Positions 4,148-19,120 of a stretch of DNA of 64,000 nucleotides are shown one piece after another. The notes below the pieces were generated by a model that saw only the letters and a list, made by a program, of their open reading frames with translations, was not told where the DNA came from and made no database searches. The stretch is from Antennarius striatus (Eukaryota; Chordata; Actinopteri; Lophiiformes; Antennariidae). Location: assembly GCF_040054535.1 (NCBI RefSeq), contig NC_090788.1, forward strand, positions 19,273,001 through 19,337,000. Reading direction: 5' to 3'. Position 1 is the stretch's first letter; each line of letters begins with the position of its first letter. Made by a program: the position numbers and the translations under genes.

Positions 4148-4155
4148 CTATAAAT
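4148..4155 (+). promoter_or_regulatory. TATA-like box upstream of tandem gene copy 1
   Basis: The motif GCAAAATCTATAAAT ends about 60 bases before the ATG at 4217. The same 15-base string, with more diverged flanks, precedes copy 2 at 8355-8369. Conservation of this string outside the coding frame suggests a core promoter that was duplicated with the gene. Confidence 0.4.
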
Positions 4156-4216
4156 TTCCACTCTGTATTCACCATCAACGCTTTCTGTAGTATTGAAGAA
4201 CGTGTCAGAAACAGAG

Positions 4217-5761
4217 ATGTCACCAGATGAGGATGATGACCCATTTGACAAGTTTGTGGAAAGCATATCAACACAAAGGGCAGAATTTACCAACATAGAA
4301 GTTGATATTATGTGTCCGCTCATTGAAAAGTTTGTCAAGCAGATAAATGAGGAACAATGGGAACAACTGAAATCCGGGAAACCCGATTATTCTCTTGACA
4401 TCATGTTGGCTGAGTTGATCCTGGACATAATGACAGTTGTGGCCTTTTCCATGATAGAGTCTTATAAGAACAATTTTATATCCGTCTCCATTGACCATGT
4501 TCAACGCTGTATGGGTGACATGATCTACAAGAGCTTCTCTCAAGCTATCAAAATGCCAACCAATACCATAACATTCCACTTCACACGTCTCACAAACTAC
4601 ATAAATACAGAAATCATGCAAATAGTCAATTCTAGCCTCTCCCCAAAGCCTGAGTATTTCACCGCAGCAAGCACCATCAACATTATAATTTCTCATACAA
4701 GGGAAATTTTGAAGGAATACAAACCCCAAACCCCGTGTCAACCATCAAAATGTATAACCGACATGTTTAAGAGCTATCCTGAAATTCAAAATACAAAAGA
4801 AAATTTCCAAAAGATTGTTTGCCAAGATATACAAAGAACAATTACAAAAGACCTTTTTGGTATGTTGTGTATTGCTTCAAAAGACATTTCACCAGACTTA
4901 ATGGAGACGTTTCAAACTGATTTCTCTCAGGGGGTTTGGTGTACCTCTGACATGATTGTAATGGAAAATCTTGTGAAAGAAACGGAGCCAAATGAAGATG
5001 CTACGCTAATTTCAGCAAATATTCAGAGCAAAATAGCAGATGTCTTTACAAAATACTTAATCAAAGCGTTAATTTATCGTATGACAAAGAAATTTTCAAT
5101 CAAACGAGATGGGAGAACTCGGCTGACAGACACAGTTGTAGATATGTTTGTTTCATGCAAGCCAGAAAAAGAAGAGGAATCAGAGTTGTCTGAAAAAACT
5201 GCAAAATACATCAAACTTATGGAAAAGCTTGCAATATTTGTCCCTGTTCGCAGTAATTTCTCACTGACCAACAGCTTTGATTTGGAGACATTGCCATGTG
5301 GGTCAAAAGATTATATAGCAGCAAACGCATGGATATTTATGGTCATGATGAATTGGTGGTTGGAAAGTCAGGTTACCCGTTACAGTAATAGGACTGCAAA
5401 CCGTGTGATGTCAATTCTTCCTGACCAAACATGTAAAGACCCACGAAATGCAATAATATTCAAAGATTATGTCAGAATGCTCATTGCACAGGTTGTGTGG
5501 AGGCTATGCCTCAAAGCGAACAAGTTCCCACCAAACAGAGACAGCATCGTGTCTCACTTGTTTGACATGTCATGGGCCGAAATTAAAGGTGAACAGAGTA
5601 AAATCAACTCGAACACCTTTGACAAACAACACAAGGCCATTCTCAAAAAAATGTATGACAAGTTTGGAAACTATAGTTCAGTCTTGAAGGCGCTGAATAA
5701 TGATGACCCCGAAGTTGAAAGTCATCTAGCAAAGATTGTAAAAAACCAACTGTTAAAGTAG
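4217..5761 (+). CDS. Uncharacterised intronless gene, tandem copy 1 (514 aa)
   Basis: A single uninterrupted reading frame of 514 codons. The first true ATG is at 4217 (context gagATGtca); the open frame reaches further upstream only through a TTG. The product is predominantly helical and hydrophilic with no signal peptide, and no catalytic motif or zinc-binding cluster that I recognise. Landmarks shared with copy 2 are FHFTRLTNY, IVNSSLSPKPEYF, FSIKRDGRT, an acidic KPEKEEESELS linker, VMMNWWLESQV and KDYVRMLIAQVVWRLC. The two proteins look roughly two-thirds to three-quarters identical by eye along their whole length, and neither has a stop or frameshift. That implies selection on a real protein. 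The function is unknown. It could be a fish-specific family, a retrogene-derived family, or a domesticated mobile-element gene. Confidence 0.75.
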   Translation: MSPDEDDDPFDKFVESISTQRAEFTNIEVDIMCPLIEKFVKQINEEQWEQLKSGKPDYSLDIMLAELILDIMTVVAFSMIESYKNNFISVSIDHVQRCMGDMIYKSFSQAIKMPTNTITFHFTRLTNYINTEIMQIVNSSLSPKPEYFTAASTINIIISHTREILKEYKPQTPCQPSKCITDMFKSYPEIQNTKENFQKIVCQDIQRTITKDLFGMLCIASKDISPDLMETFQTDFSQGVWCTSDMIVMENLVKETEPNEDATLISANIQSKIADVFTKYLIKALIYRMTKKFSIKRDGRTRLTDTVVDMFVSCKPEKEEESELSEKTAKYIKLMEKLAIFVPVRSNFSLTNSFDLETLPCGSKDYIAANAWIFMVMMNWWLESQVTRYSNRTANRVMSILPDQTCKDPRNAIIFKDYVRMLIAQVVWRLCLKANKFPPNRDSIVSHLFDMSWAEIKGEQSKINSNTFDKQHKAILKKMYDKFGNYSSVLKALNNDDPEVESHLAKIVKNQLLK

Positions 5762-6399
5762 GGAAACTGGTTCTTCACACATTCTTCTTCAACATCAATT
5801 TCTGACCCTAAAACTGGCCGGAGTGCTCCATAATTAAAAGTAAATTAAATTAGAGATAGTGGAAAAGAAACAATTCCTTATGTCACTAACATGCCACAAA
5901 TCTTGTGTTGAGGTGGCGTATCATCCGGAGTGTTCCCCGCTCAATGACAAGACTTATCAAAAAATTCAGCGTTATCTACTTCGATCAAGTTTGATTGTTT
6001 TACGCAGGTCTCAATAAACACATCAACATTATGCTATTTCAACACCAAAATGTACCTGTCCATTAAAAACACCAGGAAAAAAGATATGCTTCCCTTCTAA
6101 TGCATGTTTACTCTGGGCACTCCGGTTTTCCATTCTATATGATTGACAAAGCCATCAAAAAGAAAGTTATTTCAATCAATTTTGATGTTTTTTGCTGGTG
6201 TATTGAAACACGCAAAGCTGCAAAACTGAAATACAGCTCTCTGTGAAAAAACCATTGGTAAACACATCAAGATTCGAGGGGCAGAAAAAAAAAAGGCAAG
6301 ATTCCCCCATACGCATTTTCTCTGAACACCCTTGTTTTCCAATAGTTGATAAGATCGTAAAAAAAAAAATTGTTTTGTTTTGTTTTCTTACTTATTCAT

Positions 6400-6480
6400 T
6401 TAGTTTTCTGAATGCTTAATCCACTTTTGCGGGTCACTGGGTTTGCTGGAGCCTCTCCCAGCTGACTTACTGGTCTGCAT
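6400..6480. repeat. Fragment of the common teleost SINE-like repeat
   Basis: The string CTTAATCCACTTTTGCGGGT followed by CTGGAGCCTCTCCCAGCTGA is a diverged form of the repeat that recurs near 10.0, 19.9, 50.1, 56.2 and 62.3 kb in this window. Confidence 0.5.
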
Positions 6481-6609
6481 GTACAGCACATAGTGATTTA
6501 TTATCGTTCCCTAAATGTAGGTGAATCGTGAACTACATGAATGATACAAAAATAACTTTTGCATTTGTATTTGTAGGAAATAAAGACCAAATGAAATGTG
6601 TATTATATT

Positions 6610-6728
6610 GTATATATTTATTGCTAATGTGGTGATGGTGACTTAACTATAACATGATTCTGGCAGAGGCCATTCATTGAAGGTGCGCCTTATAGTCCAG
6701 TGTGCCTTATAATGCGGAAAATACTGTA
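6610..6728. mobile_element. Decayed MITE end (CAGTATTTTCC-type terminus)
   Basis: The segment ends with GTGCGCCTTATAGTCC ... GCGGAAAATACTGTA, matching the terminus of the complete element at 59109-59266. The opposite terminus is not recognisable, so this copy is partial. Confidence 0.55.
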
Positions 6729-7569
6729 ATCTAAATAACTAGACCAATACTATTGTTTTTTTATTCCATTTTGCATTGTAACTCAGTGAGTGACAGGTAT
6801 CCAGCCAATGATACGATGAATTTCACTGATGCTATGCAGCCAATCAGAGCATTGCCGGTCCTGCGTATGCGTCCTACCTATACACGCCGTGCAGGTTAGT
6901 TCATTCACGACTGGAAACGAACGGACAGCCAAGCCAAAGTAAAAAAGAAATGCGGTTCTTTTAAGATGGAATAGCTGTTGGAGTTTATGCAGATAAAAGA
7001 ACAAAGAGATGAAACCGGATGAGATTTTTCTTCTTTTTGAGAAAGTTCAAAGAAGCCATCAACCTGGACAAAGTGTGCAATCACATGAAAAATAAAGTGA
7101 AATTCTAGTCAGATCTGTGCATATTCTAGTGACATGTATTAAAAAAATATTTATTGATATTAATCATTTAATCCTGTTACTACTAGATAATTCATGGGTA
7201 GTGGAAATGCTAACAAATAAAAGGAGTAATTAAATATTTTACAAACAGAGTTAGAGCCATTTACACTATCACAAGCAACAGCACACACCATTGTAGAAAA
7301 TGTGAGTGTTTCAATGTGAACAAAATGTCTGAAAGGTGTGTATGTGTCATTTCTTCAAGAACAGGACCCTTAGCCAGGCCATGACTGGACCTCACCGGCC
7401 AAAGCAGGACACTCACATATAACACTACACATCTCATGAAGAACAAGATAATGAAAATTGCTGCTGTAATTTGATTCTTTTAATAAGCTATGTACCTTGC
7501 TATGATCCAAGGTTTTGAACAAGTGTGATACTGGTGTGTGTGGCCACAATATGCACATTTGATGTTGCT

Positions 7570-7935
7570 CACAGTGGTCCTCAGTGGGCAAGAACTGGGA
7601 TGTACCAGTCCATGTGCTTTTTGGGAGTCCTCTGCACAACCCATTGTACAAGGCCACTATGTCCTTTCACAGATTTGAAGATATTCGCCGTTTCTTACGC
7701 TTTGATGACAAGTGGACCAAAGCCTACCGACTGAAAACAGACCACATGGCAGCTTATCGCTACATATGGGACCTGTTCCTGGTCAACCGTAGGCACAATT
7801 TCATCCCATGATTACAGTGTTACATTGGATGAACAACTTGAGTCTTTCAAAGCCTGGCTTCTGCAGGACATGCCAAGCAAGCCTGGCTTGCAACAGAGCA
7901 GGTTATTGTCTGATCTGAAGTTCGAAGCAGATATT
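7570..7935 (+). mobile_element. piggyBac-type transposase fragment (dead)
   Basis: Conceptual translation gives MSFHRFEDIRRFLRFDD, then DHMAAYRYIWDLF, then a frame change into VTLDEQLESF and MPSKP. This is the order seen in piggyBac (DDE_Tnp_1_7) transposases, in which a DEQL-type aspartate motif and a MPxKP motif follow the FxxLRFD block. The frame is broken near 7811 and both ends of the protein are missing, so it is a non-functional relic lying between the two tandem genes. Confidence 0.75.
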
Positions 7936-7954
7936 TAAGCTACGACATTCTTCT

Positions 7955-8230
7955 TTTATTAATTACGTCACGCTTCAAAGCAGTGATGTACTGTATTTGT
8001 TAGTGTTCAAGTGTTCGTGTGTTCGTCCGTCCATCCCTTCAGGGATGAAAATGAGATGATGATGTTGACCTTGAGTAAACTAGGTCAAGGTCAAATTTCA
8101 ACTTTTGTACACTCAGGAACCGGATAAGATAGAAAGACGAGGGACAAGGCCAGTGTAAGACCAAAGATCAAAGCTACTGTTTTGATCTACCCATGCAATA
8201 GCTTTGATCTATGGTCAAAGCCAGATGTAG
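7955..8230. repeat. Interspersed repeat with nuclear-receptor-like DR0 motif, copy 1
   Basis: It shares CGCTTCAAAGCAGTGA, CACTCAGGAACC and GAAAGACGAGGGA with copy 2 near 16.05-16.3 kb, and its head with the reverse-oriented copy near 27.8-28.05 kb. It carries AGGTCAAGGTCA at 8082-8093. The family is not identified. Confidence 0.6.
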
Positions 8231-8362
8231 CACTGTCTCCCCAATAGATGTATGGAAGCTGTTCATGTCTGATGATATAGAAGATCACAGCTGGATGACC
8301 GAGAACCTTTGAAGACAACCTCAAAGCGTTGCAATCGCTAGGATCTTTGCAGTTGCAAAATC

Positions 8363-8369
8363 TATAAAT
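8363..8369 (+). promoter_or_regulatory. TATA-like box upstream of tandem gene copy 2
   Basis: TATAAAT lies about 80 bases before the ATG at 8448, within the string GCAAAATCTATAAAT that also precedes copy 1. Confidence 0.4.
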
Positions 8370-8447
8370 GTGCTGTTTTTGTATGCACGTTCATGAAGGT
8401 ATGCACAATCAATCTGCCAGAGGCAGATAAATCAATAAAAAATTATT

Positions 8448-9980
8448 ATGTCTTTTGAGAAAGTTCTGGAAAGCATAGCAGCGCAAAGGGCACCATTTAC
8501 AAACACTGAAGTTGGCATTTGTCCGCTCATTGAAAAGTTCTTAAGTCAAGTAACAGAGGAACAATGGGAATTACTGAGGTCTGGGAAAGCTGATTATGTT
8601 GTTGACATCCTGTTGGCTGAGTTACTCCTGAACATAATGACAGTTGTGTCCTTTGCCATGGTGAAGACTTATAAAAACAGTTATACATCTGTGTCCAGCG
8701 ACCATGTCCAACGCTGTGTGAGTGACATGATAAACAGGAGCTTTATTGAAGCTCTCAAAATTTCAATCAAAACCATAACATTCCACTTCACACGTCTCAC
8801 AAACTATGTAAATACAGAGATCATGCAAATAGTCAACTCTAGCCTCTCCCCAAAGCCTGAGTATTTTACCACACCAAGCACCATTAACATTATAATTTCT
8901 CATACAAGGGAAATTTTGAAGGGCTACAAAACCGAAATCCCATATCAACCATCAGAATGTATGGCGAACGTCATATACAACAACTATCCTGACATTGAAG
9001 ATTCTAAAGAAAATTTCCGAGAGATTGTTTGCCAAGATGCACAAAGAACAATCACGAAGGAGCTTTTTGGTATGTTGTATATCGCCTTAAAAGACCTTTC
9101 ACCAGACTCAGTTCGGACTTTTCAGTTTGACTTCTTTCATGAAGTTTTGTGTACCGCTGACATGATTGTAATGGAAACTCTTAAAAAAAAAACAGTGCTA
9201 AATGAGGATTATGAACTTTTTTTCACAAAGATTCTGGGCAAGCTTGATGCTCTTTTTACAAAATATTTTGTCAAAGTATTAGTTTATCGTATGACAGAGA
9301 ATTTCTCAATAAAACGAGATGGGAGAACTCAGCTGACAGACTTAATTATAGATATGTTTGGACCTTCACACAAGCCGGAAAAAGAAGAGGAATCGGAATT
9401 GTCAGACAAAACTACTAAATACATCAAACTTATGGAAGAGCTTGCAAAATCTGTACCTGTTCATAATGATTTCTCACTCATCAACAGCTTTGATTTGAAG
9501 GCATTTCCATGTGAGTCAAATGATTATATAACAGCAAACGCATGGATATTTATAGTCATGATGAATTGGTGGTTGGAAAGTCAGGTTAGCCATTACAGTT
9601 ATAGGACTGCAACCCGTGTGATGTCAATTCTTCCAGAGATTGACCAAACATGTGAAGACCCACGAAATGCAATGATATTCAAAGATTACGTCAGAATGCT
9701 CATTGCACAGGTTGTGTGGAGGCTATGCCTCAAGGTGAAGAAGTTCCCACCAAACAGGGAAAGCATTGTGTCTCACTTATTTGAATTGTCATGGGCCGAA
9801 ATTAAAGGTGAACAGAGTAAAATCAACAAGAACACCTTTGACAAGCAATACAAGGTCATTCTCAAAAAAATGTTTGCCAGGTTTGGCAGCTATAATACTG
9901 TCTTAAGGGCACTGAATACTGATGACCCTGACGTTGAAAGTTGTCTTGCAACGATTGTGAAAAAACAACTGTTCAAGTAA
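8448..9980 (+). CDS. Uncharacterised intronless gene, tandem copy 2 (510 aa)
   Basis: A single uninterrupted frame from ATG 8448 to TAA at 9978-9980, in the same orientation as copy 1 and about 2.7 kb after it. It aligns to copy 1 from ESIxxQRAxFTN near the N-terminus to the final lysine, with only small indels (for example an extra EI before DQTC). It lacks the acidic DEDDDPF N-terminal extension of copy 1. The conserved Trp-rich NAWIF...MNWWLESQV segment and FHFTRLTNY segment are nearly identical. No known domain was recognised. Intact frames in both copies argue against random decay. Confidence 0.75.
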   Translation: MSFEKVLESIAAQRAPFTNTEVGICPLIEKFLSQVTEEQWELLRSGKADYVVDILLAELLLNIMTVVSFAMVKTYKNSYTSVSSDHVQRCVSDMINRSFIEALKISIKTITFHFTRLTNYVNTEIMQIVNSSLSPKPEYFTTPSTINIIISHTREILKGYKTEIPYQPSECMANVIYNNYPDIEDSKENFREIVCQDAQRTITKELFGMLYIALKDLSPDSVRTFQFDFFHEVLCTADMIVMETLKKKTVLNEDYELFFTKILGKLDALFTKYFVKVLVYRMTENFSIKRDGRTQLTDLIIDMFGPSHKPEKEEESELSDKTTKYIKLMEELAKSVPVHNDFSLINSFDLKAFPCESNDYITANAWIFIVMMNWWLESQVSHYSYRTATRVMSILPEIDQTCEDPRNAMIFKDYVRMLIAQVVWRLCLKVKKFPPNRESIVSHLFELSWAEIKGEQSKINKNTFDKQYKVILKKMFARFGSYNTVLRALNTDDPDVESCLATIVKKQLFK

Positions 9981-10355: not shown

Positions 10356-13300
10356 ATGAAGGAAGCGAAGATGTCTGCGCCTGTGAGCATAGGAGACTTG
10401 CTCCAGGCAGACACGCAGGAGGACGGCGCCCACCGGGACGACGGGCTGTGTGTCGTTGGGGTGTTCGGGAAGAGCAACATGCAGTCGGGGCTGCCGAAGG
10501 AGTCTCTCATCAACGCGTTGGCGGACAAGAACATCTTCTCGCTGTTCGGCGGGCCGGAGGACGGCGGCGGCGCAGACAGCCACATCCAGGCCTTCTACAA
10601 CCGGGACTCCCAGGTGCTCTACCTGGTGCTGTCGTCCGTGTGCGACAGCCGGCAGCTGCTCCGCGCCTGCCGGGCTCTGAGCGCCGGGACCGGCCACTCC
10701 GACGCCCACGACTTCTGGAAAGGCCTCGACAAGCAGCACTGCCTCCATCTGCTCTATATGTTCTCCGTGTGCCACGTCCTGCTGCTCGTCCACCCGAACC
10801 AGACGTTCGACGTGTCCTACGACCGGCTGTTCCGGGCCCTGGACGCCCTCCGGCAGAAGGTCCTGCCTCTGTTTCGGGCTGCCATCAAAGACTGTCCGGT
10901 GTCCATAGAGTGGAAGGTGAACTGTCGGCCGTGTCCTCCGCGCCTGCTCTTCGTGTTCCAGATGAACGGCTGTCTTAAGGTCTGGTTATTTATTTGCAAC
11001 TAGATTTATAATTATATTTTATATATATATATATAATTTATAATTACTTCTAAGGTTTTGTCAAGTCTAGGTTTATTGTGTCAGTTCTAATTTCTGCAGT
11101 TGTATTTAATCATAATCAGAGGATATGTTTATTTGAATTGCTGATTTATTAGTACATTTTTCAAGTGGGATTAACACCCAACAGTTTGTATTCCACAAAT
11201 GTGAATACTTGCATTTTTTATTATGGGAACAGGAGCATTTAAATGAGTCGTTCTCACTGTTGCTTAGTGGAAGCTCAATGTGTCACAGTAGAAGAGCATT
11301 TTTTTTAAATAATCCGTCTGCCCGGCTATTGTTAGACTGAAACTGTAGCTGGGCTTTATTAGGTTTAACACCATAGCAAACAGAATGTATTGATACGCGA
11401 TCAGAGTGGAGACTTCTTGAAGTCCTGAGTTTTGAGGTGTTGCATCAAGTGCATCTTGTTTTTAAAAAAATATCCTGGAATTTGGGAATTTGTTTCCTGT
11501 TTTTTGGGGGGGGGGTTGTTTTTTGTCCTTAGGTGTGTAAATTGAAGAAAAAAGTTTTAAAAACTGTCTGAAAGGGAGCATGTTTTCTAAATTGTTGACC
11601 TACTTTTTCAAGTAGTAGTCTTTAGCAAGTTGAAGATATCTCGTAAAGTGCATCATATAAGCCTGAGAAGGCACACGTTTGTTTTATAAGTTGTTAATAG
11701 TCGTGTTTGTTTTTCCAAAGGTGTCGGGAAGCATGTCTGAGTCTGGAGGAAACCCTGACAAGCCTAAGAAGCACTCCCCCAGGAGGCGCCTGCAACATGC
11801 CCTGGAGGACCAGATTTATCGCATCTTCCGTAAGAGCAGGGTTCTGACCAACCAGAGCAGCAACTGCTTGTTCACCGTGCCAGCCAACCAAGCCTTCGTC
11901 TACATGGTCCCCACGGTGGAGGAGGACCCAGTGGGTGCCTTGCTCGGTCAGCTGAGGTCTGACTGTATCTTGAAAGAACACGACTCCACCGTCTCCATAT
12001 CGGGGCCCAGACGATATCAGCAGATCCGTCGTGCGGCTCGTCCATCTGGCTTCAGTAGCGACTCGGGCAGCATGTTGGCGGGAGGTCAGCTGACGGACTG
12101 CACCCTGAAGGAGTTCCTGTGGCAGCACATAGAGCTGGTCCTCACAAAGAAGGGCTTTGACGACAGCGTCGGCCGCAATCCACAACCTTCACACTTCGAG
12201 CTGCCGACTTTCTCCAAATGGGTCCAGGTTGCGTCCAGACTTCACCAGTTTCTGATTAGCACCACAGATGAAGAAATGGTCGAGCTGACCGCCAAAGTGC
12301 AAAGTCAGCTGAAGGTTTTAGAAGGTTTTCTCGATGCAGACACAAAGTTTTCTGAGAACAGATGCCAAAAAGCCCTGCCACTGGCTCACAGCGCTTACCA
12401 GTCCAACCTTCCCCATAACTACACCACCACGGTGCACAAGAACCAGCTTGCACAAGCCCTGCGGGTGTACAGCCAGCACGCCAGAGGTGTGGCTTTCCAG
12501 CGTTACGCTCTGCAGCTTCATGAGGACTGCTACAAGTTCTGGAGCAATGGTCACCAACTTTGTGAGGAGCGAAGCCTGTCGGACCAGCACTGTGTTCACA
12601 AGTTCCATCTGCTGCCTCAGCCAGGTACTGAGCTGCGTCAGGGTCGGCCAGGACAAACGTAATGAATGTCATGTACATCATGTATAACACAACAACTGTA
12701 GAAGTATTTCAGTGATTATCAGACAAAGCTGTACCTCACAACTCACTCAGGGTTTAACGCCGCAGAAAAATAACTTCTAAAATATTTGTGTAAATCCTTG
12801 TTTCCGCTCTGACGTTCATTTCTGTTTTTGCATTTATATTACATCAAATATAGTTGAGAGAAAACTAATAACAGATGTGGTGTTGATCCCTTCAGGAGAG
12901 AAACCCGACATGGACCGAAACCCACCCATCCTGACCCACAACAGCAGGGGGCGCTCCACCAGCTCCTGTAACTGCGGCAGGAAGCAGGCTCCACGCGAAG
13001 ATCCATTTGATATTCAGGCGGCCAATTATGACTTCTACCAGGTCAGGACGCCTTCCACACTCAGGAAGGCACAAGAAGCCTTCATTCAACTTTAAGTCAT
13101 TCTAAGACAGTCATTGGTTTATGTGTCACTTAGAAAGAAATGCATAAAGAACATGTTTGTGAACCCTGATGGGAGGTGAAGGAATCGATGGAAGTGTGGC
13201 GTGGATCTGGAAAGGGGAGGAATTTACAATTTTTGTGTAAATGCCCCTTGAACCTGATCATCCTGGGTGGAGGAGGAGGGGGAATTTTTCACTTTTTAAG

Positions 13301-15050
13301 CCTTGTAGAAGACATCTCTGGTGTTTGACTGCTCTCTGTTGTCTCACTGTGATATTCAGGTGTTCATTTAGTTTTATTTCAACACCCGTCCAGTGATGGC
13401 TGGTCAATCTGAGTGTCATCCAGTAAACACAGGACTGAAGTAGAAGCACAGACACAAAGCAAAAGGCTGCAGAGATGAAGTGTTGGAGTGACTGCTATCA
13501 GGCCGCCTGATGCATTACTAGATGCAGTCAAACCAACTGAGGAGACTCTGACCTCTGACCTCTGAAATTTGGTCGTCTTGGTCAGGTGGTCATTTTACAT
13601 AAAAGAGAGACTCGTAATCAAACAGATTGTTTCCAGGTTAAGAAGCTCTAATAATTTTAAATGTACAGAAAACAAAATCATTGACAGTCTCAGCCTGGTG
13701 GGGAGATGGTATAAAGATCAGAGGTTTCATATTCATTACTTATTGTGTTAGCAGTAGAGACGACGTCGCTCATGCCTTGATGTTTCCATCAATAAATCCG
13801 GTGTCTGTCCATCGATCGATGACGGGGATCTTTTCCATCACTCACACACCCAGCATTAACGTCGTCTTTCCCATTCTCACGTTACCGCACATTATTTTCC
13901 GTGTCTGTTTCTCTTCTTGAACAGATGCTGGAGGAGAAATGCTGCGCGAAGCTGGACAGGATTGAGTTTCCGGTGTTCCAGCCCAGCACCCCCGACCCCG
14001 CCCCGGCCAGCGACCAAGCTCAGCGACTCCCGTGCGAGGCCTCGGGGTCTGGTGAAGAGGGGAGGGTGAAGGAGCAAAGCACGGCCCAGAGCCACACCCC
14101 CGGAGACACCAGCCTGAGCCTGGCTCTCAGCCTGGGTCAGTCCACCGACAGCCTGGGCCCCTACGGGGAGGGGGACGGGCCCGAAGCCCAAGTGCCGCAA
14201 AAGAGGCCGAGCCTGGCCGATCGGCAGCCGTCCACCGTGGAGTACCTCCCTGGTATGATGCACTCCGGCTGCCCCAAGGGCCTGCTGCCCAAGTTCTCCA
14301 GCTGGTCGCTGGTCAAACTGGGACCAGCAAAGTCGTACAACTGCCACACTGGTCTGGAGCAGCCGGGCTTCCTACCCGGCTCGTCCTTCCTCCTGCCGTG
14401 GGATTTGGTGATTCGCTCTCGGTCAGAGGAGGACGCAGGACCGTCAGAGGCGTTGGATGGAAGCTCCTCGTGGCCGGCCCCCAATAAGACCCTGGTGGGG
14501 AAGCGGGGAAGCACCGGAGGACTGGGGAGGAGTCGCAGGAGGGACGATATGGCTCGTGTGTTCGTGGGGTTCGAGTATGAAGACAGCAGAGGACGGCGCT
14601 TCATTAGCAGCGGTCCTGACAAAATAGTGAAGGTCCTGGGGCCAGGGGGGGCCAAGGACCCCGCCACCAGGGTGCTAAACACCGACATGCCACTCTACAT
14701 CCTCTCGCCCTCCCAGGGCCGCGGTCTCAAGCCTCATTACGCCCAGCTGGCTCGCCTTTATGTGGTGGTGCCCGACGCGCCGCTGGAGGTTACGCTCAAC
14801 CCACAGGTGAGCAGCTCAAAGTGTTGAAGCACGGTCAAGTCAGCAGTGATAGTTCTAGATTTACACTTTATGAGCTTTATTTATTTAGTTTAGGGTCCAT
14901 AAGGTCTCACGTTATGTTCCCAATGTAAATACGACCACTGACATAAAATATTACATCAATAATAAAGAAGAAACGGTCACAAATAAAGGTATTTTATCTT
15001 GATTTGCAGGAATCGGTGTGTTTTCGACACCAACGTGTTGTTAATCCTCA

Positions 15051-15327: not shown

Positions 15328-16029
15328 GGTGACCTTCAGCATCCCGGACCTCGCTGCAGTCATTTTCCTCATGAAGGAGGCTGACAACAGTCCGTCTGTG
15401 GGACGATGGCCTCAACTCATGACACCGATGTTTACAACCAATGACAACCACTTCTATTTCCTCCAGACCCCCCCACCCCTTCACTTTCCAGACACCAGAT
15501 TGTGGGGAGCTGCTCGCTCTATTCATATATGTGGCTAAAACAACTAGAACATCTCCCCCCGTGTCACGCTGTCATTGTCCAGCTATGCGAGGTTGAGAAA
15601 ACCAGCGGGATACGTTACAACACTGAGAATGTCTGTTTTTTTCCATTTAAGTTTGCCTGAATAGTTACTGATAATTAAGCTGATGTCATGAGTTTTCTGC
15701 AACAAATCACTTAAAAGTTGCCCCATTCATTTCATGCACGCTGTTTTTGGCTATACGTTAGATTATTTGTTTCCAGAAGTGGGGATTGGCTCAAACATGC
15801 ATAATGCTTCACAGTAAAAACACATCTGTAATAATGTGTAAGATATGTACAGTAATCATAAAATTAAATAGTTCATAAAATAATAAATAGAATAATCGTA
15901 AAATTATGATTATAAAATGTGGCTTGAAATGTCAGAAAAATGTTAATAACAAGACTAAATATTGTTATAAACATGTAAATACATACATGTGTGTGTCATG
16001 TAAAGTCATGTATGAATAAATGCTGAAGA

Positions 16030-16330
16030 AATATATTTTTGCATCCCGCTTCAAAGCGGTGACGTATTGCGATTGTCAGTGTTGTGTCCGTCCGTTCGTA
16101 TGTCCACCTTCGCAACCGTTGCAGATAGAACGATGAAACAAAAAGCGTATTACTCAGGCAGCAAAGGGGATGAAAATGAGATGATGACCTCCGGAAAACT
16201 AGGTCAAGGTCAAACATCAACTTTTGCACACTCAGGAACCAGATAGAAAGACGAGGGAGAAGGCCAGCGTGTGTAAGACCGTAGATCAAGCTAGTGCTTT
16301 GCTCTACGACACTAGGTCAGCGCAAGAAAG
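16030..16330. repeat. Interspersed repeat with DR0 motif, copy 2
   Basis: Begins CGCTTCAAAGCGGTGACGTA and shares ACTAGGTCAAGGTCAAA, CACTCAGGAACC and GAAAGACGAGGGA with copy 1. The DR0 motif is at 16201-16212. Confidence 0.6.
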
Positions 16331-18100: not shown

Positions 18101-19120
18101 ATGGTCACCAACAAGACTGAGGTCCAGCGGAGGATCGTGTCCAAGGACGGCCACAACAACGTGCGTATCGACAACGTGGAGGGCATGGTCAAGCTGTACC
18201 TGCACGACATCTGGACCACGGTGGTGGACATGAAGTGGCGCTACAAACTCACTCTGTTCGCCTCCACCTTCGTCATGACCTGGTTCATCTTCGGGGTCAT
18301 CTTTTACTTCATCGGCATGGGCAACGGGGACTTGGAGTCCGGCCTGAGTTCCAACCACACCCCCTGTGTGATGAACGTGGAGACCCTCACCGGAGCCTTC
18401 CTGTTCTCCCTGGAGTCTCAAACCACCATCGGGTATGGTTTCCGCTACATCTCAGAGGAGTGTCCTCTGGCTATCTTCACCCTGGTGGCTCAGCTCGTCA
18501 TCACCGGCCTGGCTGAGATCTTCGTTACCGGGGCGTTTCTAGCCAAACTGGCTCGGCCCAAGAAGCGAGCGGAGACCATCAAGTTCAGCCAGTCGGCGGT
18601 GATCTGCAGGCACCAGGGCCGACTGGTCCTGATGGTGAGAGTGGCCAACATGAGGAAGAGCCTCCTGATCCAGTGTCAGCTCTCAGGGAAGCTGCTCCAC
18701 TCCAATGTGACAGAGGAGGGCGAAAAGACTCAAGTCCACCAGAGCTCCGTGGATTTCTACATGGACTCCAGCGGCGAGTGTCCGTTCCTCATCCTCCCGC
18801 TCACCTTCTACCACGTTCTGGATGATCGCAGCCCGTTGGCGGGACTCAACGCTAAAAACCTCCTCACGCGTGACTTCGAGCTGCTCGTTACGCTCAACGC
18901 CACCATGGAGTCGACGGCCGCCACGTGCCAGAGTCGCACCTCATACGTTCCGCAGGAGATCCTCTGGGGTTACGAGTTCAAACCGGTGCTATTCAGCACC
19001 ACCGGGGGGCGCTATGTGGCTGATTTCAACTTTTTTGATAAGGTACAGGTGAGCAACGATGCAGCGTTCCTCAGTAACAACACAGAGAAGTTAAAGCTGG
19101 AGGAGGAGTATAAGAAGTAA
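18101..19120 (+). CDS. kcnj15: Kir4.2 inward-rectifier potassium channel
   Basis: A single coding exon of 339 codons, as is usual for KCNJ genes. An acceptor (TTTTGTCAG at about 18046) just upstream implies spliced 5' untranslated exons. The protein has M1 at about residues 49-72, the pore with TIGYGFR (GYG 111-113), M2 at about 125-150, the rectification glutamate in AEIFVTG (E139), conserved extracellular cysteines C89 and C121, and a cytoplasmic IRK domain with [11 protein letters not shown] and [11 protein letters not shown]. The N-terminal half ([23 protein letters not shown]) matches KCNJ15 better than KCNJ10, and synteny with vps26c/ttc3 supports this. It ends at LEEEYKK and lacks the about 20-residue tail with the SNV PDZ ligand of mammalian Kir4.2. 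It forms a tetrameric plasma-membrane K+ channel. Confidence 0.93.

Follow-up and report, generated by a model that had tools for sequence, protein, structure and literature searches.

The window analysed here is a 64,000-nucleotide (nt) stretch of the Antennarius striatus genome (contig NC_090788.1, forward strand; C13:19273001-19337000 in our contig numbering). It contains two neighbouring single-exon frames, designated genes A and B, which belong to a family of similar frames in the same genome. The genes and the features that accompany them are as follows, in window positions.

4217..5761, + strand: gene A, intact single-exon frame of 514 aa (family member L001)
8448..9980, + strand: gene B, intact single-exon frame of 510 aa, 70% identical to A (family member L002)
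4149..4154, + strand: TATAAA of A, a putative TATA box 68 nt before the ATG
8363..8368, + strand: TATAAA of B, a putative TATA box 85 nt before the ATG
6105..6133 (C13:19279105-19279133), + strand: family 3' element, pattern GGTTTACTCCGGGNACTCCGGTTTNCCAT with 2 mismatches, starting some way downstream of A (about 345 nt past its stop codon)
7952..8224, + strand: piece of a dispersed repeat, upstream of B
8166..8209, + strand: TTTGATC/GATCAAA sites starting at 8166, 8181 and 8203, all three upstream of B and inside the dispersed repeat

The genes are arranged head to tail, and their open frames extend over positions 4154-5761 (A) and 8439-9980 (B), both on the + strand. The preliminary description of this DNA, made from the sequence alone, had reported that two adjacent frames, each a single exon (514 and 510 codons), encode full-length homologues. 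Both points were confirmed: the frames open with ATG at 4217 and ATG at 8448 and contain no stops, and BLASTP aligned the two proteins with 356 of 509 identical residues (70%, 733 bits). The four landmarks listed there (FHFTRLTNY, FSIKRDGRT, MNWWLESQV and AQVVWRLC) are present in both proteins. Nucleotide identity over the aligned codons was 84%, with 74, 66 and 102 differences at the first, second and third codon positions. The ratio of nonsynonymous to synonymous substitution rates (dN/dS), proposed in the same description as a check on the copies, was 0.51 by the NG86 method (dN 0.152, dS 0.297) and 0.69 by YN00 (dN 0.164, dS 0.239). On the terminal branches, drift would be expected to introduce 7.2 and 5.7 premature stops into A and B (about 13 in total), and none was observed; thus, chance is a poor account of the two open frames.

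Further copies were searched for in the 548-Mb genome by six-frame comparison with three family members, namely gene A (expect value, E, 0.001; 21 rows), L009 (E 0.01; 19 rows) and L015 (E 0.01; 23 rows). The rows obtained with gene A corresponded to 17 loci, which are spread over eight contigs and include 14 open ones; this bears out the earlier view of a family of intact single-exon genes. No further clear locus was obtained with L009 and L015 at E 0.01, and one row of the L015 search (C17:21160304, E 0.0095, one stop) was excluded from the family count. The copies fall into four groups.

L001-L011: 11 full-length open copies (L011 and L014 are one locus)
L015 and L016, on C20: two short forms, each about 365 codons long
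L017/L019, on C7: one double-length frame of 910 codons with two family segments, the N-terminal part being repeated
L012, L013 and L018: three broken copies

All 14 open copies lack introns. The short forms align to gene A only at residues 30-178 and 426-512. We also considered an ancestral intron at the break point common to L012, L013 and L018; this idea was dropped on the evidence of L018, where the match carries on beyond the break and contains stops, and of L013, which runs into a repeat at that position. As a separate observation, none of the 17 loci is more than 3.4 Mb from a contig end, and seven sit in roughly the final 2.6 Mb of C5; simulation over the eight contigs gave P values of about 0.0001 (maximum distance) and 0.0007 (mean distance) for this clustering, which was noticed post hoc.

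Coding constraint was evaluated on the 11 full-length open copies, the three broken, two short and one double-length copies having been left out beforehand. About 156 stops would be expected under drift on the terminal branches of the nucleotide tree, and none was observed. Since the copies had been chosen as open and three loci are broken, this result indicates constraint on the 11 copies, not on all 17. Site models were fitted with code written for this analysis, in which the relative branch lengths were kept at those estimated by IQ-TREE; the P-values are approximate. Under model M0, omega was 0.787, which fitted better than omega 1 by twice the log-likelihood difference (2dlnL) of 24.3. 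Site classes with omega above 1 were supported across the 11 copies, with 2dlnL of 58.7 for M7/M8 and 44.6 for M8a/M8; the latter fell to 20.2 without gapped columns and the N terminus and to 16.7 when gap neighbourhoods were also removed. In the clade of L003, L006, L007, L008, L009, L010 and L011, omega was 0.88 and M8a/M8 was 19.3. Thus, diversifying selection is supported in this seven-copy clade and not in the clade that contains the window genes.

The region before the start codons was compared in 16 loci (L018 was left out, as its upstream sequence reads N), and the last 220 nt before the ATG were used. A 62-column block with the TATA box is common to A (-122 to -62) and B (-140 to -79). 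Across the family, TATA[AT]A occurred within 120 nt of the ATG at 14 of 16 loci, compared with 6 of 128 control pieces taken farther up the same flanks. In an unbiased k-mer count, ATCAAAG/CTTTGAT ranked first, with 32 sites in 14 genes against a mean of 1.2 and a maximum of 5 in 300 shuffles. The leading 8-mers were ATCAAAGG, present in 11 genes of the 16, and CTTTGATC, present in 10. The latter was seen 18 times in the last 220 nt, where 0.16 would be expected from its genome density (25,680 in 548 Mb). As for the 500-nt flanks, it had 24 occurrences on the upstream side of 16 loci and two on the downstream side of 15 loci, the latter two being within the repeat of L013. The TATA box and the CTTTGATC/CCTTTGAT sites are the upstream elements that paralogues have in common. 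According to one published study, CTTTGATC, together with CCTTTGAT in the case of one cell line, represents the top 8-mers of TCF7L2 chromatin immunoprecipitation sequencing in human cell lines (PMC3491396); in another, CTTTGATC is called a canonical TCF7L2 motif and was required for Wnt-driven expression of the gene studied there (PMC7315491). Most of the family promoters look like Wnt-pathway TCF targets.

Taken together, we consider it somewhat probable (roughly 60%) that A and B are real genes of an uncharacterised, intronless and partly fast-evolving family that is driven by TCF sites and a TATA box and has spread by DNA-level duplication. As a part of this explanation as a whole, A and B would represent a tandem duplicate, with the proximal TCF sites lost or degenerate in both. 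Each copy would be a self-contained transcription unit. A TCF/LEF-type factor would bind the CTTTGAT sites that cluster about 50-170 nt upstream of the ATG, and the TATA box would set the start of an unspliced mRNA with a short leader. The product is predicted to be mostly helical, with conserved N-terminal (about residues 30-180) and C-terminal (about 365-512) parts; our best guess is that it acts inside the cell as an adaptor or regulator. The copies would have arisen by duplication at the DNA level, the promoter being carried along. As to where the protein acts, we would guess at the germ line, the early embryo or another setting marked by sexual conflict or an arms race.

Several observations weigh against this explanation, and some of them concern the window genes themselves. 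Clustered TCF/LEF motifs were found at the promoters of the family as a whole and not at those of A and B, which are the two of the 16 loci whose last 220 nt contain no CTTTGAT; the upstream sites of B all lie inside the dispersed repeat. The start codons were chosen by us, and those of L008 and L011 were moved before the second site count, which gave 33 CTTTGAT/ATCAAAG sites at 14 of 16 loci, with at least two sites at most loci. The window clade (L001, L002, L004 and L005) showed no positive selection (omega 0.59, M8a/M8 0.1); fast diversification is consequently a trait of the other branch of the family. Of 528 sites, no more than 11 had a posterior probability above 0.9; seven exceeded 0.95, four of these at the poorly aligned N terminus. 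Three of the 17 copies are broken, and the 3' element occurs at only nine of the 17 loci. The AlphaFold2 models were poor, with a predicted local distance difference test (pLDDT) score of 36 for the full-length window pair and 59 for the C-terminal 149 residues, and a Foldseek search of PDB with the C-terminal model gave no matches at E 0.001 (the best, at E 1.1, carries no weight).

The regulatory part of the explanation also had to be weighed against the possibility that the CTTTGAT clusters are non-regulatory leftovers of an abundant dispersed repeat near the genes. Pairs of CTTTGATC numbered 1629 genome-wide versus 43 in the reversed control (38-fold), and nearly all pair loci that were examined, L038 being an exception, have the motif embedded in a common dispersed element some 400 bp long. 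The repeat set comprised 30 loci (L034-L063) in 28 distinct places. The element has inner arrays of CTTTGATC, a TCF7L2-type site, and some copies end near ACATCCCGC and GCGGGATGT. Because the repeat carries the same arrays, the motif alone is no proof of regulation, and the location of B's sites within the repeat is consistent with a passive origin. However, eight loci (L003, L005-L010 and L012) hold sites outside matches to the 30 repeat loci, and in several cases these sites are aligned between paralogues beside the TATA box. At L003, L008 and L012, single or double repeat matches end upstream of the sites. At L005, L006, L007, L009 and L010, the last 220 nt match no repeat of the set and yet hold sites; at L005, L006, L009 and L010 this absence of repeat matches extends over the last 500 nt. 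The regulatory case therefore rests on copies such as these four, and a purely passive origin of the clusters appears doubtful to us.

The position of the repeat relative to the genes bears on a second possibility, namely that a DNA transposon or virus supplied the frames, either as its cargo or as a protein that was domesticated. Repeats with the same CTTTGATC sites lie within 500 nt upstream of three of the 16 loci (strong matches at B, L004 and L011), and one such repeat adjoins the end of the broken copy L013, as would fit mobile cargo. However, the repeat near L004 is inverted relative to that at B, and the 500 nt upstream of the other 13 loci contain no strong match; in the downstream flanks of intact copies (1.5 kb compared), the matches were weak and no more than single or double. 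A repeat match at L015 disappeared under low-complexity filtering. Searches of viral contigs, prokaryote genomes and phages yielded no relative of the family, and no transposase relative was found either. Between the two genes, a 56-codon open stretch at window 7641-7808 resembles a fragment of a piggyBac transposase, but it gave no Pfam match at E 0.01. We regard this possibility as very improbable.

The preliminary description had suggested a retro- or transposon-derived origin, which is not favoured by the shared 5' and 3' flanks and by the lack of an intron-containing parent and of transposase or viral relatives. Under the retro-derived variant, the family would descend from one ancient processed copy or from repeated retroposition of a multi-exon parent, and the intronless state of all 14 open copies agrees with this. 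Nevertheless, no multi-exon parent was detected in the same genome at E 0.001 or 0.01, in a search in which the best candidates were scored and short exons could be missed. In addition, paralogues on different chromosomes have upstream blocks in common that extend to about -160 relative to the ATG, with the TATA box inside them. Comparison of the downstream flanks of 15 loci by BLAST revealed a block 150-510 nt past the stop codon that is common to part of the loci. The pattern of the 3' element, with up to 2 mismatches, matched the genome 13 times and the control not once; nine of these matches are at family loci, including A. A retro origin is not favoured, because TATA-region sequence and the 3' element shared by paralogues would be missing from ordinary mRNA copies. 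The 3' element resembles a sequence that is widespread among fish genomes; of the four remaining matches, two look like that sequence. Separately, C6:25838542 and C22:11605282 are good matches away from the known family loci and may be undetected members or relics. Intronless and relocated hatching-enzyme genes of teleosts kept their promoters, which was explained by retrocopying of promoter-containing transcripts (PMC6385490). For this reason, and since the transcript starts assumed here are putative, an ancient retro step is possible; as a whole, we consider a retro-derived origin unlikely, and DNA-level duplication is the preferred reading.

A promoter module of similar composition was also found before other genes. 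CTTTGATC followed by TATATATG within 34 nt had 25 matches in the genome versus 12 in the control; six of the 25 were at five family promoters and 19 elsewhere. A 17-base piece of the module gave a weak excess at up to one mismatch (25 matches versus 10 in the control), with six exact matches, among them one at L010 and another at C9. Three of the other loci were inspected.

C9:23552400-23553440, - strand (L083): the same module before a HIPK-like kinase segment, the frame of which seems to hold an intron
C7:23577150-23577900 (L084): a kelch-like BTB-BACK segment, its frame broken early, preceded by CTTTGATC and TATATATG, densely spaced TTTGATC sites and a TATA box
C5, 2 kb from L006 (L085): the module before no recognisable frame

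As these three were picked for looking like the module, they give no rate. The catalytic loop of the HIPK-like kinase reads HGN, which in our reading suggests a pseudokinase. One might speculate that a single CTTTGAT and TATA promoter module is common to unrelated families (this family, HIPK-like kinases and kelch-like genes), several of them near chromosome ends, and forms a Wnt/TCF-responsive regulon, probably of the germ line or early embryo, with the dispersed repeat as a possible seed of new members; we hold such a regulon to be unlikely.

The neighbourhood of the pair in the window includes the following features.

10356-14824: SMG8 (Pfam Smg8_Smg9), in at least three coding pieces, beginning about 0.4 kb past B
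16025-16324: second window copy of the dispersed repeat
18101-19117: inward-rectifier channel gene, a single open frame with both inward-rectifier channel domains

The statement that the recognised genes nearby are intron-rich holds for SMG8, which is split, but was too strong as a general one, because both channel domains sit in the single frame at 18101-19117.

Database searches agreed with the initial impression of an unrecognised protein family and gave no clear match to a known multi-exon family. Nothing exceeded the Pfam cut-off for the two window proteins, for an alignment of 13 members or for ten proteins searched with details, and no relative was found in NCBIfam (four proteins) or among PDB sequences. 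Title, abstract and word searches of the open literature recovered no paper that we recognised as describing the family. The name "fibrous sheath CABYR-binding-like" was considered and dropped, as it was absent from the open-literature search results.

If the preferred reading is correct, the family would represent a set of protein-coding genes without known domains, partly under diversifying selection and tied by a promoter motif to a well-studied signalling pathway. It would allow a direct test of whether the TCF/TATA module, and not gene homology, defines a co-regulated, fast-turning-over set of fish genes, and also of whether repeats spread such promoter modules.

Comparison with known systems revealed partial likenesses. 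The closest profile was DUF4495 (PF14906), which matched residues 351-431 of the L006 frame (E 3.2e-5) over 82 of 319 profile positions; membership was rejected, because the score of 23.6 bits was below the gathering cut-off of 25 and the other 12 of the 13 members had no match at E 1. The teleost hatching-enzyme genes resemble the present family as intronless fish genes that retain promoter sequence at several loci; however, they encode a known protease with intron-containing relatives, whereas the family described here has neither a known domain nor a parent among the sequences searched. In the European sea bass, 34 of 312 pairs of single-exon and multi-exon genes share upstream sequence (PMC8207432); these are likewise single-exon genes of a fish genome, but the pairs compared have multi-exon relatives, in contrast to the present family, for which none was found. 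The fish oogenesis-related gene org was considered as a fish-only germ-cell gene and dropped: in the tongue sole it has six exons and encodes 221 residues (PMC9369028), whereas the frames of the present family consist of a single exon and span about 360-910 residues.

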